Virus record (IMG/VR): IMGVR_UViG_3300033153_004471
Span: 1 to 34,450 of that record
Length of the DNA stretch: 34,450 bases
Direction: 5' to 3' (one strand)
DNA from: a virus
Below are positions 20,067 to 32,737 of this stretch, piece by piece. The notes beneath the pieces were generated by a model. It was given only the letters and a program-made list of their open reading frames with translations. It was not told where the DNA came from and searched no databases. The position numbers and the translations under genes were made by a program. The first letter of the stretch is position 1. The number at the start of each line of letters is the position of its first letter.

Positions 20067-23036
20067 TCAGGTCTCCTTGATTACAGGTAATAAGTCGCAA
20101 CGGCAATTACTTGACAAAACCCCATTGGCACTGTATAATGTCCCCCTAGATTGGAGGTCGTACACATGACCAGTAAAAGAATAGCGATTGACGTAGACAA
20201 TCTTATTAGGCTTTATCAGGCTGGAATGTCTGAGAAGAAGGCTGCGGAGTTCTTTGGTGTGGACCGCGGCACTATCCGCAAGCGGCTCTTGGCTGCTGGA
20301 ATCAAGCCCAGAGGGAGAAGCGAGGCTATGTACCTCCGCATGAGCCAGACTTCGCCTGCTGAACGCCGGAGACTCAGTTCTGCCGCCCATAATGCGATCA
20401 GAGGCTCTAGCCAGACTGATAAGCATAGGTGTAAGATTGCTCGGACCATTGAACGTAAAGGTCTTCTTGTCTCTCGTATCGAGCGGAAAGCTATTGCCAT
20501 GCTGCGTGTACGCGGATTCTCTTGCATTCCTCAAAAGGCCGTCGGTCGCTACAATATCGATATAGCCATTACAGAACCTCCCATCGCCGTGGAGATATTC
20601 GGGGGCCACTGGCACGCTAGTAATCTCCACGCCCGGAGATTCCATAAGCGACGCAAATACATTCTCGACCAGGGCTGGCTCCCAGTGTGCATTTGGGTTA
20701 CTAGGGACTACCCGCTCGAAGCTGGAGCAATCGAGTATATCGTCGCCCTCGCACAACGACTTCGCAGAGGTGAAACCATCGACAGTCAGGAGGAGATGAT
20801 TCGGGGTAACGGCGAGTTGTCTGCCGTCGGCAAGCGTAAGTTCGACAACTTCGCCTGAGTACCAAGCCTTAAATCCCGATACAATGTCAGGGGCTATTAC
20901 TGCTTGGCCCGGCAATATACAATTCGGATGAATTGGCGGGTAATTTATAGGCCCATAGTCAGTGCCCAGCTTGCCGCCGTCTACGCCTGTTACCGTCTCG
21001 CCTTGATCTACGAATGTACTGCCAAGAGATACGCCGCCGGTTCCCGGCCCAAATTGAGCATTCATGGCCTGGCAGAACTCGCACATATCGGCGGCACCGT
21101 TCCATTCTTTAGCCACAACGACTTCAGAGTCGCCCCATGCTTGCTCAGTCCCAGCCATCATAGCTCTGGCTGATTCAGTACGGGCAATCATATCGGCACG
21201 GTTCCGGGTGATCTCCGGGCCGAACACCTTCTCCTCGATTCGCTTGCGTAACTCTATCATAGTCTCCCCGGCCTCAAGGCCCTGGGCAAAATGTAGCTGT
21301 AGTTTGGCATTGGTCTCTTTGTTCACCGCTTGGGCGAACTTGAAGCTATGCTTCTTGACAAACGCCTGAGCCTCCGGGGTGTTTATATCGAAACTAAGGC
21401 CAAGGCCAAGCTGCTGCATACCTCGCTTGCCACCAGCAGCTAAAAGCTTCTTCATGTCCGCCTTGCTACGTTTCACAAGCTCTTTGTTCCACTTGTCGAC
21501 ATTCACCTTGGGCACTTTTGCCTTTGCTTGAATAACAGCTTTCGGCATACTTCCCAACACTTCGGCCTTCTGTTGCTGGAATACCTGCCTAAGTATAGCT
21601 GCTAGACTATCTCGTGGCGGTGGCAAGTCGTCCGGGTCGATAAAACGGAGAGTAGGACCAGCTTCTAAACCAGTCCTATCTCCGCCTGAGAGAGAAGGAG
21701 AGAAGCTTTGTGTTCCTAACGGCACTAAGTTCATAGGCATAATCGGAGTATCACCCCATTCTACGGGTTTTCGGTTATCTTCAAGACGTTCTTCGTTGAT
21801 TGTTGTGTAACCCGTTCTGAGATTGATTTCGCGTTCCTCAGCTGCGGCCCTTTTATCTTCCGGTACAGGATTATCAAAGGCTACGAATAGCTTCGGGTCG
21901 TATAATGGCAATAGCTGCTCGTTTAGCTTCTCCTCGATACGTCTGCAACGTGGCCGTATAGTACGCCGGGCATAAGAAACATTGCCTACAATCATACCCG
22001 TTACCGGGGCACTTTTGATATCCTCGACTGTGAGCAAACTCATAGGCACGCCAAAGATAGCCGCTATCTCTGTGCGAGTTACTTTACGGCCTTGCAAAAA
22101 TCCCATCTCTCGCGGCGTCAGTGCGATATTCTTAATGTCCAAACCGCCTTGGAGTATTGCAGTCTTTCCCGCATTTCTTGGCCCCCGATGCTTGGCGTTC
22201 CATTCATCTTTGAATCGTGTTATTTGGGCATCGGTAAGATTTTGCTCTGTCACAAAAATATTTTCAGGAATAGCATTATTACGCATCAAGGTGTTTTCGT
22301 AGGCACTCATCCCCTGGTGAGTATCGGCGGCTAGCGCAGCAGCGGCTAATGGACCTTTACCGTAATATATGTCAGCGGGGTCTGGATATTTCATGTGTAT
22401 AATTTCTTCCGGTTCATATCGCTCGCGGTTCATGGGATTTTTGCCGAATAGATAGCCATCGATAAATTTCTCCTTGCTCGGCAGTATTTTCATCCATTGG
22501 GCGGGTAATATCCATAGCTGAATAGGGACGTTTAGGCTGTTATAAATTATCAAAGTGTAGCAATTACCGGCAAGTTCCTGATATAACGTCCATTGTTCGA
22601 TAAGGTCGAAGGAGTTCATATACGGATTCACGTTCGCCATCAAATCCAGATACGGATGTTCAAGCACTTCCTCAACTTCCGCCGCGTTGATTAGTTTAGT
22701 CTGAAATGATTTATCAGCAAATAGGTAATCTCTAACCTTTGAGCTAACCGGGCGGGTCTTAGTTCTAATCTTTTGCGATTTACTGGATTTGGCTACGTAG
22801 AGTCGTAGAGGCACTGAGGCCACGGTAGTCGCGTTGATATTCGCACAAGCATATACCCAGGACACATATCGAGCTATGAGTTTATCATGACTGAGGTTTT
22901 GATATTGCGAATACAATTCATTTAGCGAAGCTGGCTGCGTGCTGATAAGTGATTGTGCCCGCTCTGGTACAGGTTCACCCGCTCTTTGTATCAGCCAATG
23001 CCCAAGGCTCGCCACGGCTGAATTAATTACACCCAT
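20067..23036 (-). CDS. Portal fused to Mu-F head morphogenesis protein, interrupted by an intein
   Basis: A 989-codon frame. Residues 1 to about 470 are an HK97-type portal (SWVYACANINATTVASVPLR, GNCYTLIIYN, TRTEIAAIFGVPMSLL). About 500-705 plus 978-989 are a Mu gpF/SPP1 gp7-like domain (ARTESARAMMAG, MCEFC, PPIHPN|CRC). Residues 706-977 are an intein of 272 residues inserted between Asn705 and Cys978. Splicing would give a 717-residue product. The portal forms the packaging ring and Mu-F acts in head assembly. ATG 23036 follows AAAGGAT. It lies directly after the large terminase and a tiny gene. Confidence 0.9.
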   Translation of the reverse strand: MGVINSAVASLGHWLIQRAGEPVPERAQSLISTQPASLNELYSQYQNLSHDKLIARYVSWVYACANINATTVASVPLRLYVAKSSKSQKIRTKTRPVSSKVRDYLFADKSFQTKLINAAEVEEVLEHPYLDLMANVNPYMNSFDLIEQWTLYQELAGNCYTLIIYNSLNVPIQLWILPAQWMKILPSKEKFIDGYLFGKNPMNRERYEPEEIIHMKYPDPADIYYGKGPLAAAALAADTHQGMSAYENTLMRNNAIPENIFVTEQNLTDAQITRFKDEWNAKHRGPRNAGKTAILQGGLDIKNIALTPREMGFLQGRKVTRTEIAAIFGVPMSLLTVEDIKSAPVTGMIVGNVSYARRTIRPRCRRIEEKLNEQLLPLYDPKLFVAFDNPVPEDKRAAAEEREINLRTGYTTINEERLEDNRKPVEWGDTPIMPMNLVPLGTQSFSPSLSGGDRTGLEAGPTLRFIDPDDLPPPRDSLAAILRQVFQQQKAEVLGSMPKAVIQAKAKVPKVNVDKWNKELVKRSKADMKKLLAAGGKRGMQQLGLGLSFDINTPEAQAFVKKHSFKFAQAVNKETNAKLQLHFAQGLEAGETMIELRKRIEEKVFGPEITRNRADMIARTESARAMMAGTEQAWGDSEVVVAKEWNGAADMCEFCQAMNAQFGPGTGGVSLGSTFVDQGETVTGVDGGKLGTDYGPINYPPIHPNCILPGQAVIAPDIVSGFKAWYSGEVVELTLADGRQLAVTPNHLLLTVDGFTSAKSLCEGDDILDCSSFERVVPSNPNAHWEPALVENVFASLMESPGVEITSVPVAPEYLHGDGRFCNGYIDIVATDGLLRNARESAYTQHGNSFPLDTRDKKTFTFNGPSNLTPMLISLARASDRIMGGRTESPAFSRRSLAHAEVHSLASPSGLDSSSQEPLADSAAVHTKELRSLLLRHSSLIKPNKIVYVNRYSFTGHVYDLQSRGTLYSANGVLSSNCRCDLLPVIKET
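20111..20139 (+). promoter_or_regulatory. Consensus sigma-70 promoter for the endonuclease gene
   Basis: Plus strand: TTGACA (20111-20116), 17-base spacer, TATAAT (20134-20139); both hexamers perfect. The predicted start is near 20146, just before the TTGGAGG ribosome site (20151-20157). The promoter is embedded in the minus-strand codons for the intein C-terminal splicing motif (LYSANGVLSS). Confidence 0.85.
20166..20858 (+). CDS. Vsr-like homing endonuclease, antisense inside the intein
   Basis: A 230-residue protein, the only convincing plus-strand gene. ATG 20166 follows TTGGAGG by eight bases and a consensus promoter. Residues about 12-50 are a helix-turn-helix (LYQAGMSEKKAAEFFGV, DRGTIRKRLLAAGIKPRG). 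About 100-200 form a Vsr/EDxHD-type nuclease core: E106 (SRIERKA), D132 (YNIDIAI), E143 with IFGGHWH (H148, H150), and KYILDQGWLPVCIWV. It should cut an intein-less portal gene near the HPN-C codons and drive homing. Its codons lie exactly opposite intein codons 22-252, so none of its Leu or Ser codons is TTA, CTA or TCA. Confidence 0.85.
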   Translation: MTSKRIAIDVDNLIRLYQAGMSEKKAAEFFGVDRGTIRKRLLAAGIKPRGRSEAMYLRMSQTSPAERRRLSSAAHNAIRGSSQTDKHRCKIARTIERKGLLVSRIERKAIAMLRVRGFSCIPQKAVGRYNIDIAITEPPIAVEIFGGHWHASNLHARRFHKRRKYILDQGWLPVCIWVTRDYPLEAGAIEYIVALAQRLRRGETIDSQEEMIRGNGELSAVGKRKFDNFA

Positions 23037-30269: not shown

Positions 30270-30529
30270 TTTGGGGGCGCCTCCGGCGGGCCCAGTGGTA
30301 TTACCCTGACGCGATTCGCTCTACCCGTAAATATCTCCAATGTGGCTGCATCCTGCTCCGCCGCCGCCAGGTTCCAATTAGCACCATCTATCGCAAGAGC
30401 CTTGGCGATGCTGGATGTGGTTTGCGGACCTTCTTTTTCGCTGTGGGTGCTGAGCCCATAGTAGTATCTCGGCACTACCGCCGGTGCTCCCTTTTTACTC
30501 ATTTCTTCGATTATAAATACGCTACTCAT
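30266..30529 (-). CDS. Small hypothetical protein in recombination cluster
   Basis: An 87-residue protein. ATG 30529 overlaps the nuclease stop. MSSVFIIEEMSKKGAPAVVP, then YYYGLSTHSEKEGPQTTSSI and a proline-rich tail. No family recognised. Coupled to the two nucleases on either side. Confidence 0.55.
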   Translation of the reverse strand: MSSVFIIEEMSKKGAPAVVPRYYYGLSTHSEKEGPQTTSSIAKALAIDGANWNLAAAEQDAATLEIFTGRANRVRVIPLGPPEAPPK

Positions 30530-31628
30530 CAGCATCCTCGCTTTCTTCTTCCCCCAAATATCCAGGCTCACCCTTATTTCGCTTGAATGTAGCTCGTTGA
30601 CTTATGACATTTACGCCCCAATAATGGTCGTCCACTTGAATGGGCCCGTTGGCGGCCACATTTGCCTTCATTGTCTTGATACGATCCGCTATCTCTGCTT
30701 GCATTTTTTCAGTGGCACCAGCAAAGGCCACGCGATCAGTATCTATATCAGCATAACGACGTTCGGCATTGCAATGATGTTTTATAGAGCAATACTGACA
30801 ACGCTCAAAGCCTGGCTGCGGGGCCCATTCTTCCTCTGTCAACATCTGGCCGACAGCACTTTTGATAATATGCTCATTAGCCTCAAGGTCTTGTAGATTA
30901 TATACATACGGCTTACCCCATGAACCCCTACGACAATAGAATGGCTGCCAAGTAACCTGTTCGACATCTTCTATATATCGCCATGTAACCACACTATAGA
31001 ACATAGGCTGTAGTCCGAAGTTGCGGCTCCAGCCCGTTTTCCAGTCAACTATCTTGATTTCGCCCTTGCCATATCCCCGGACACCCAAATCTGGTCGGCA
31101 GGATAGCACTACGTCCTCCCCCCTGGGTCCAAACCTCTCCAGCGTATAGCTGAATTGCTTCTCGTGAGCCACATAGCTTGGCTGCCAAATAGATATCCGG
31201 GCTCCGGTCAATTTGGCCAAATGCAGCAATTCGGGCTGATAACGAGCATCGGCGGCCACGGCTAACTGACAGAGGGCCTCTGGGCTGCGTGAGTCGCCGC
31301 TGGCTAGCAGTTCGTCGATATACTCGGCCATAACAGCATGGAAGGCTACGCCTACGTTAGCGGGCCTGTCAGCGTCAGCATCGGGGCGTTTACGATAGTC
31401 TACGGGGATATCCTGGGCTTCTAGCTCAAACTTACTCAGCCACCACTGATCCGAATAGTCCAAATCGCCGCTACACTCCCATCGCTCGTATATCTCGGCC
31501 AATAACTGTGCTTTGGCCCAAAAACTGCACTTGGCATAAACGTCTAAATTGCTGCGATCTATTCTGATAACCTCTTGTGGCTTGGGCTTTTTGCCAGCGG
31601 CGACGATTTGTTCGTAGAGATCGGGCAT
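30522..31628 (-). CDS. RecB/Cas4-like PD-(D/E)XK exonuclease with Fe-S cysteines
   Basis: A 368-residue protein. NVGVAFHAVMAEY with His97; CRPDLGV with Asp180; IKIVDWKTGW with Asp195 and Lys197 (PD-(D/E)XK core). Four cysteines, Cys34 and FERCQYCSIKHHC (277, 280, 286), match the split Fe-S cluster of AddB/Cas4-type nucleases. It directly follows a RecT-like gene, so the pair likely acts as exonuclease plus annealing protein for recombination and end processing. Confidence 0.8.
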   Translation of the reverse strand: MPDLYEQIVAAGKKPKPQEVIRIDRSNLDVYAKCSFWAKAQLLAEIYERWECSGDLDYSDQWWLSKFELEAQDIPVDYRKRPDADADRPANVGVAFHAVMAEYIDELLASGDSRSPEALCQLAVAADARYQPELLHLAKLTGARISIWQPSYVAHEKQFSYTLERFGPRGEDVVLSCRPDLGVRGYGKGEIKIVDWKTGWSRNFGLQPMFYSVVTWRYIEDVEQVTWQPFYCRRGSWGKPYVYNLQDLEANEHIIKSAVGQMLTEEEWAPQPGFERCQYCSIKHHCNAERRYADIDTDRVAFAGATEKMQAEIADRIKTMKANVAANGPIQVDDHYWGVNVISQRATFKRNKGEPGYLGEEESEDADE

Positions 31629-31651
31629 TATTTATCTCCTAGTGGTAATTC

Positions 31652-32644
31652 CTATTGATTTTCGACTTCCGGTGTCCCCTGGACAACACCGGGAACCCAA
31701 TGCGGGTCTAATCCATTGACCTCTAGTTCGTGGATACATTTATCCGCCAAGTCGTCAGTCCAATTATCGGTATTAGCAATATCAACACCTTCGTCGGCTA
31801 CTCGCTTAGCCAAATCCACGGCTGCAAAATATAGAATATCCGCAGTTATCTCAATTTCCCCAGCGACCTCTAGCATCATGTCCCGGAGTTTCCCCGTAAC
31901 TGCGCTTATGGCTGGGTTAATTTGGGTTGTAGCTACTACTTGCGGCGTGGCCGTTCGTTCCTCTCGTGGGGGCAGTTCCGCAGCGTTTTTAGTAGTTTTC
32001 AGCGGAACCATCGGTTCGATATCAGTATATTGGCTCGCAAGTTCTTCGGGGAATGCCGCTCGTAACGCACGGGCTTTGGGTACTTTTTCCATCATCCAGG
32101 TATTCATCTGAGCCCATGAACGGACGGGCTTGCCGTTGCGGTCCGTCTTGACAATTTCTTCGTAAGGGCATTCTACATCGATAGGATATTTACGGTCTTT
32201 GCGGTGGACTATGGCATAACCGCCAACTATTTTATGTTTATCATCACGGGGATAATCACAGGCTTTGCCTCTTATTTTTTCACCATTTACCCGCCAGACC
32301 ACCCCAGATTCTATACCATCAAACTGCGGATGTCTCTGGGCTCGGTCTACGAACACTTCGTAATTGACCACAAATGACGGGGGGTCCCCGCTTTTATAGC
32401 GAATAAAATAAGCCTGTTTGCGAAATAGCGGGTCGTATTTATTGGCCGCGCACCATGCTAGGAAGCAACCTATCTCAAAATCAGATGTTTCCTGTTCGTT
32501 TCTACACGATGACAGCAATGTTCGACAACCCCGTATAGTCGTTGGAACGACTCTAGCATCATAAGTAACGATATCGAGCCCGCCATGTTCTATAATCTGC
32601 CGAACATCTACCCTGACAATATCAGTTGTGTGGCTATCTGGCAT
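31652..32644 (-). CDS. RecT/Bet-family single-strand annealing protein
   Basis: A 330-residue protein. ATG 32644 follows GAAAGGAGCGAAA; a longer frame upstream runs into the gap. KQAYFIRYKSGDPPSFVVNY, DRAQRHPQFDGIESGVVW, GGYAIVHRKDRKYPIDVECP and TWMMEKVPKARALRAAFPEE are the RecT/Bet core (about 105-245). The C-terminal third is acidic and helical. Works with the RecB-like nuclease next downstream. Confidence 0.82.
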   Translation of the reverse strand: MPDSHTTDIVRVDVRQIIEHGGLDIVTYDARVVPTTIRGCRTLLSSCRNEQETSDFEIGCFLAWCAANKYDPLFRKQAYFIRYKSGDPPSFVVNYEVFVDRAQRHPQFDGIESGVVWRVNGEKIRGKACDYPRDDKHKIVGGYAIVHRKDRKYPIDVECPYEEIVKTDRNGKPVRSWAQMNTWMMEKVPKARALRAAFPEELASQYTDIEPMVPLKTTKNAAELPPREERTATPQVVATTQINPAISAVTGKLRDMMLEVAGEIEITADILYFAAVDLAKRVADEGVDIANTDNWTDDLADKCIHELEVNGLDPHWVPGVVQGTPEVENQ

Positions 32645-32650
32645 TTTCGC

Positions 32651-32728
32651 TCCTTTCATAACCCGCCGACGGGGTTCACCTTTCGCAAGGGAATTTACCC
32701 GGCTTACCCCGCCGGACAGGCCAATAGG
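32651..32728. other. Intercistronic hairpins upstream of RecT-like gene
   Basis: The 93-base gap between lysozyme and RecT-like genes holds two small stems: AACCC/GGGTT arms (about 32660-32676) and CCGGC/GCCGG arms (about 32699-32715). Neither has a U-run. They resemble the hairpins found between genes of the accessory block. Confidence 0.45.
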
Positions 32729-32737
32729 ATGATTCAA

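Follow-up and report, generated by a model that had tools for sequence, protein, structure and literature searches.

Can one segment of phage DNA encode an intein on one strand and, on the other, the endonuclease that would move it? The question is raised by a portal-MuF fusion gene in the viral record IMGVR_UViG_3300033153_004471, whose 34,450 bases form the window analysed here. An original prediction, made from these letters alone, described a 272-codon intein frame on the minus strand and, wholly inside it and over its block B and most of its linker, a 230-codon endonuclease frame on the plus strand, in exactly opposite register. We found both frames as described. The intein frame is stop-free from 20921 to 20106 and in frame within the portal-MuF gene. 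The plus-strand gene starts with an ATG at 20166, stops at 20856-20858 and lies opposite intein residues 22-252; hence, it covers block B (TPNHLLLT, residues 39-46), the linker and the block-F His. Codon position 2 faces position 2 throughout, and none of the 16 Leu and 14 Ser codons of the endonuclease is TTA, CTA or TCA, against 7.4 stop-making codons expected from contig usage (32.6% of Leu and 15.9% of Ser codons; log10 P = -3.8). We conclude that this is very probably a homing intein whose Vsr-type endonuclease is a separate protein coded on the antisense strand, and that the arrangement is spread across many phages. Sequence comparison establishes the architecture, the register, its conservation, selection on two frames, expression signals embedded in the intein, and empty insertion sites. 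The features of the locus are as follows (a slash marks a splice junction or insertion point; AF2, AlphaFold2; HTH, helix-turn-helix).

20067-23036, minus strand: portal-MuF fusion gene interrupted by the intein; 989 aa, or 717 aa if spliced
20922-23036, minus strand: N-extein, ending ...YPPIHPN; the relatives L185-L188 run straight into CRC here
20106-20921, minus strand: intein of 272 aa, Cys1 to Ser-Asn272, with +1 Cys; matches PF14890, blocks conserved in 18- and 59-sequence alignments
20724-20921, minus strand: N-terminal half of the Hint domain, residues 1-66, blocks A and B; ten-residue blocks of the AF2 model at 88-98 for residues 1-60
20217-20723, minus strand: intein linker, residues 67-235, the antisense shadow of the endonuclease by AF2 model and substitution test
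20106-20216, minus strand: C-terminal half of the Hint domain, residues 236-272, blocks F and G, ending VLSSN/C; AF2 blocks at 84-98 for residues 241-272
20067-20105, minus strand: C-extein CRCDLLPVIKET and stop codon, from the sequence
20166-20858, plus strand: antisense homing-endonuclease-like gene, 230 aa, with an N-terminal HTH, a helical middle and a Vsr/EDxHD-type nuclease
20193-20300, plus strand: HTH DNA-binding part, residues 10-45; HTH_23 at 2.4e-4, below cut-off; helices 10-18, 23-30 and 34-43
20463-20765, plus strand: Vsr-like nuclease core, residues 100-200, with E106, D132, E143, W149 and H150
20111-20139, plus strand: sigma-70 promoter sequence TTGACA-17-TATAAT, 12/12, antisense to intein block G; same offset in related loci
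20153-20157, plus strand: Shine-Dalgarno sequence GGAGG, 8 nt ahead of the ATG, antisense to the block-F DLQ codons

Using the endonuclease protein, we found 64 IMG/VR loci, to which we added 10 phage records, 13 loci from bacterial genome contigs and 57 further viral loci (from the best 80 of 452). With the window, this first set comprises 145 loci, in 113 clusters at 70% identity, and endonuclease identities range from about 60% down to 26%. In the phage collection 125 records match at 1e-3, from which we took those named here; among bacterial genomes of one class, a match at 1e-15 was detected in 1 of 385, at a locus already known. The in-register antisense frame is stop-free over the match in all 145 loci (the window and 144 others). 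In the 64 IMG/VR loci it is open without exception and continues past the match, in a few to the contig end, and the other two registers hold 3-33 and 4-15 stops. By motifs in their printed translations, we recognised the same layout in 10 of 10 further phage records: Snoke, Sedona, 1.197.A, Rctr197k, MSW-3, RCIP0015, fEg-Eco06, ViaConlectus, vB_StyS-sam and REQ3. Of twenty phage records, one (sam) annotates part of the antisense gene, under the name hypothetical; the rest annotate the host gene only at this place, with the intein added in Snoke.

Across 111 of the 113 clusters (two have too few Leu and Ser codons for usage), endonuclease frames contain no stop-making codons, against 546 expected from contig usage, the usage being that of unverified frames, 120 codons or longer from stop to stop. 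In the reverse direction there is one such codon against 731 expected, and it falls in L088, whose endonuclease is broken and whose intein is still open. Codons have turned over widely among the clusters despite their common ancestry, and AT-rich loci likewise lack antisense stops. In Acinetobacter phage IME285, where a homolog stands free, the in-register antisense frame is broken by 12 stops along the coding sequence, three of them in the matched part; hence, membership of the protein family does not in itself keep this frame open. None of 97 proteins forces a stop in the observed register, and the other registers are openable in 23 and 18 of the 97; that this register can always be opened by synonymous choice may explain why we saw no other. 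The IME285 homolog itself (L173, 455-1348) resembles the longer antisense copies of MSW-3 and of Aaphi23, which has a MupF entry in InBase, and is possibly an escaped or ancestral form.

We also approached the family from the intein. Searching with nine aligned N blocks, we obtained at least 579 loci, of which we analysed the best 80, near-identical loci included; at least three contigs are common to the first set, and since block B overlaps the C-terminus of the endonuclease, the search is only partly independent of that protein. With the N block of the window alone as query, one weak locus was obtained. The prediction turned on whether homologous inteins conserve the antisense frame, and 79 of these 80 loci, chosen by their N blocks, carry the endonuclease in register: 75 as one open reading frame, three cut by contig ends, and L249 in reduced form. 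We detected no sense-strand endonuclease match in the 80 loci.

We reasoned that the two frames could be distinguished by the substitutions they tolerate. In 39 disjoint pairs with endonuclease identities of 50-96%, we compared single-base codon changes silent in the endonuclease and changing the intein with the reverse class. The first class prevails 3.7- to 4.8-fold over linker residues 63-232, so that the linker looks like a shadow of the endonuclease. The same ratio is 0.74 over the Hint N block (148 to 201) and 1.78 near block F, and the contrast between linker and Hint N block is strong (Fisher p 3e-45). The conserved VPV..E.FHG of the linker lies opposite the nuclease motif AVEIFGGHWH. 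As judged from these substitution patterns, the endonuclease frame is constrained over the linker and both frames are constrained over the Hint block; the selection on both strands that the prediction left to be looked for is thus present.

Insertion sites point to mobility. By N-extein similarity, eight loci come closest to the window; we read four of them (L185, 70%; L186, 65%; L188, 45%; L187, 33%), and all four are uninterrupted. Snoke and fEg-Eco19 share 93.6% of their MuF exteins and differ by exactly 816 bp, and exact empty sites lie opposite Snoke's intein in fEg-Eco19, Bas75, AG11 and Sciku. Among 60 listed of 230 records resembling Snoke's gene, the similarity continues through the intein in 18, takes in both flanking regions across about 1.04 kb in 26, and is limited to one flank in 16; AG11 and Sciku, from the last group, are uninterrupted. 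A different copy occupies another site of the same gene in fEg-Eco06, where Snoke is empty. This is presence/absence polymorphism with exact empty sites, as for a mobile intein. Endonuclease similarity follows Hint similarity (rho 0.66) more closely than extein similarity. The first correlation is partly expected given that the compared Hint halves overlap the endonuclease gene; these comparisons cover 93 of the 113 clusters, 20 having a short extein or no boundaries. In 252 pairs with an endonuclease score ratio above 0.45, the extein ratio is below 0.1 in 138 and above 0.3 in 22.

Host proteins, from 146 N-exteins at E 0.01, are MuF (95), Phage_min_cap2 (20), uracil-DNA glycosylase (1) and a few single others. 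Judged by these predicted products, the layout is not limited to Mu-F and also occurs in dCMP-deaminase-like and uracil-DNA-glycosylase-type genes. In Virus Rctr197k (L169, 1665-3017) the module sits inside a dCMP-deaminase-like gene that the record calls head morphogenesis. The uracil-DNA-glycosylase-type host gene of L248 (2201 onward) continues into a long protein that by eye appears polymerase-like, and the +1 residue of its intein is Thr instead of Cys. The last 40 N-extein residues of the L235 host protein have no Pfam match. In L016, a second intein C-terminus (..YANGILVHN/CDYC) lies upstream in the same MuF gene, apparently forming twin inteins. The intein of Rhodococcus phage REQ3 (L176, 1578-3356) seemingly starts with Ala, not Cys, and its endonuclease lacks the N-terminal HTH part. 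Several extra endonuclease-profile matches on the antisense strand of L212 suggest a tandem or second copy.

The layout could be as we describe and the plus-strand gene could now serve mainly another purpose, be it antisense regulation of MuF, defence by a nuclease or repair by a domesticated enzyme, with mobility secondary; its transcript would be antisense to MuF mRNA, and Vsr itself is a repair enzyme. We consider this improbable, since patchy presence, exact empty sites, two sites in one gene, unrelated host genes and occasional decay of the endonuclease with the intein kept all fit homing. The prediction of an overlapping sense/antisense selfish element is supported by conserved register, two-frame selection and empty sites, and splicing and mobility would be the functions of its two strands.

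The minus-strand product is intein-like. Its 272 residues match PF14890 at 2.8e-6, below the Pfam cut-off, and in an AF2 job with 59 sequences both Hint halves are modelled well (block values listed above); at E <= 0.001, the Foldseek matches of the model are three solved inteins. The signature residues in the window are C1, TPNH, N272 and +1 Cys. Among the 59 aligned inteins H42, T46 and G49 are invariant, and the constancy of C1 and N272 is partly by construction, since boundaries were set by a pattern script, of which a few calls are wrong (e.g. L055 and L007). By blocks and fold, the insert thus resembles a Hint-type intein, as predicted, and would splice. It interrupts the HPN/CRC motif of portal-MuF, 12 codons ahead of the stop. 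The host gene matches Phage_portal at 6e-61 and Phage_Mu_F at 3.4e-5, the latter below cut-off, and the head genes of the window are of phage type (terminase, portal-MuF, prohead protease and major capsid). Could an endonuclease gene merely have split MuF, leaving an accidental open frame through it? The linker is under little selection and much of it is predicted to be disordered (102 of the 272 residues are below a predicted local distance difference test, pLDDT, score of 50, all in the linker at 69-79, 128-161 and 176-232). We regard this reading as very improbable, given the conserved H42, T46 and G49, the exact in-frame junctions that restore the extein, and the selection seen on the intein frame where the Hint block overlaps the endonuclease. 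Moreover, the frame stays open after endonuclease loss: L249 retains a reduced endonuclease and an intein of 188 aa, and L261 has no endonuclease and an intein of 176 aa with an FHGDG remnant.

The plus-strand product, predicted to resemble Vsr-like homing endonucleases, is nuclease-like by profile and fold, and is likely to cleave DNA. It matches PF18741 (MTES_1575 nuclease) at 5e-8, below the Pfam cut-off; of 97 relatives, 86 match this family at 0.01 and four match Vsr. The AF2 model, from a job with 97 sequences, has a pLDDT of 90.8. Foldseek ranks Vsr, the Vsr-like protein 3hrl and I-Bth0305I at the top, with probabilities of 0.94-1.00, and VIA structure comparison gives Z scores of 11.6 over 115 aa for Vsr, 11.1 for 3hrl and 10.2 over 95 aa for I-Bth0305I. 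D132 is conserved in 97 of 97 sequences, E106 and E143 each in 94 and H150 in 88, as counted in these relatives and not by residue-by-residue superposition on the I-Bth0305I catalytic set. That codon bias left the plus frame open without any function, and that the linker of a large intein is the real gene, as long featureless antisense frames and a confidently modelled stretch of linker (both described below) might suggest, is scarcely credible when the plus frame is the one conserved over the linker, folds into a high-confidence nuclease with conserved catalytic-type residues, stands free in IME285 and lacks antisense stops opposite it in AT-rich loci too. Shadow readings in both directions were rejected by stop-codon counts, conservation and substitution tests.

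Two features beyond the original prediction, the promoter sequence at 20111-20139 and the GGAGG at 20153-20157, lie within splicing blocks. In block F (GHVYDLQ), the D-L-Q codons face the GGAGG on the opposite strand, and the His codon faces the ATG. Across 107 of the 113 clusters (six have no recognisable block F or junction), the block-F Leu codon is CTC in 69 of 86 cases, against 19.2 expected, and the start-codon His is CAT in 61 of 68, against 30.7 expected. The best sigma-70 score averages 9.53, compared with 7.04 in synonymous shuffles (p 2e-17), and 26 of 104 clusters have a perfect 12/12 promoter; the nine clusters left out of this tally have no recognisable block F or junction, or a +1 residue other than Cys. 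Scores of at least 11/12 are reached by 36 of 64 Ser-Asn inteins (35 at one identical offset), 6 of 9 Lys-Asn, 1 of 2 Arg-Asn and 0 of 1 Pro-Asn.

Several observations weigh against a homing intein with an antisense endonuclease. The clusters are related by descent, and the formal log10 P of -276 for the stop-codon count is not to be taken literally. The free-standing control is a single lineage; a further search added one contig, at 97% identity. In-register antisense frames of 93-413 codons without endonuclease features are present in Sedona, ViaConlectus (413), REQ3, Eco06 and sam, so that frame length alone proves little. Residues 81-120 of the linker, which face the nuclease core on the other strand, reach pLDDT 80-89 in the model with no selection of their own, a result not fully explained, and hence the linker may not be wholly passive. 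The usual penultimate residue of an intein is His, and that of the window intein is Ser. Pfam matches of both intein and nuclease are under cut-off, and Foldseek E-values of the endonuclease are weak (9e-3 at best, to 1e-1). Endonuclease similarity also somewhat tracks extein similarity (rho 0.35). Finally, clear sigma-70 promoters are confined to part of the family, with 0 of 28 His-Asn inteins scoring at least 11 (Ser and Lys inteins against His, Fisher p 9e-9); this is a correlation rather than a forced trade-off, since only one -35 base lies in the window's penultimate codon and the inteins are related.

Taking these points together, we still favour a homing intein with an antisense-coded endonuclease, which could work as follows. 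From the minus strand, translation of portal-MuF would include a Hint-type intein, which would then excise itself; between the Hint halves, the linker would be largely unconstrained, an antisense shadow of the endonuclease gene. From the plus strand, the promoter and ribosome-binding site in intein blocks G and F would drive expression of an HTH and Vsr/EDxHD-type endonuclease, perhaps early and independently of the late host gene. When two phage genomes share a cell, the endonuclease would cut intein-free MuF alleles near HPN/CRC, and repair by recombination would copy intein and endonuclease together. Genes for a RecT-family recombinase and a PDDEXK_1 nuclease lie at 30525-32737 of the window (minus strand), a recombination pair that could assist homing repair. 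A broader proposal seems to us evenly balanced between right and wrong: that these are widespread, ancient, bidirectional dual-coding selfish elements of about 0.8-1.1 kb, splicing from one strand and cutting from the other, in which the promoter, ribosome-binding site and start codon of the endonuclease, antisense to the splicing blocks, have shaped splicing residues (penultimate His to Ser or Lys with the promoter) and the nuclease can be early and independent of the late gene.

In textbook inteins, the endonuclease is a domain fused in frame with the splicing domain. Like LAGLIDADG and HNH inteins such as PI-SceI and TliVMA, the element described here has splicing Hint halves around an endonuclease-coding insert, with signs of a homing cycle. 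It has no in-frame fused endonuclease domain; instead, the endonuclease would be a free protein of Vsr/EDxHD type, encoded by a separate antisense reading frame. I-Bth0305I is intron-associated. The predicted antisense enzymes share with it and other EDxHD (Vsr-like) enzymes the nuclease fold and an extra DNA-binding part, have conserved acidic and His residues that may correspond to its catalytic set, and differ in being intein-associated and antisense; they may add a family of Vsr-type homing enzymes. Dassa et al. (2009) reportedly described fractured genes with split inteins and a Vsr-like endonuclease gene between the Hint halves, whereas the intein here is contiguous and overlaps the endonuclease gene.

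A 2014 review describes intein endonucleases as fused with the intein (PMC3943268). The Mu F (MupF) intein of a Mu-like prophage in Methylococcus capsulatus Bath, which by its published description likewise sits in a MuF head gene, was reported in 2004 to have no recognizable endonuclease (PMC517821). The Escherichia phage Snoke record annotates the MuF intein and not the antisense gene. Inteins that appear endonuclease-free can thus hide an endonuclease on the other strand. A full-text literature search, with key older papers outside it, brought up no account of an intein whose endonuclease is coded on the opposite strand, and passages of PMC3556154, PMC3203893, PMC1635734, PMC7282813, PMC8966425 and PMC2988022 do not mention such a layout.

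These loci would represent a partnership of splicing and endonuclease built from opposite strands, in the one antisense register that any protein can keep stop-free synonymously, and a large natural example of conserved sense/antisense overlap between protein-coding genes, for which coliphages offer intein-plus (Snoke) and intein-minus (fEg-Eco19 and Bas75) pairs. The nearest precedent is the ShiLan insertion in a mycobacteriophage methylase gene, where an HNH endonuclease is hidden out of frame on the same strand; its authors discuss translation of the enzyme from the host transcript, and neither a splicing domain nor a ribosome-binding site is detectable (PMC11855218). Both are in-frame phage insertions that hide an endonuclease in an alternative frame. 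Where the ShiLan type combines an HNH enzyme with the lack of a splicing domain, the element described here combines a Vsr-type fold with intein splicing blocks.

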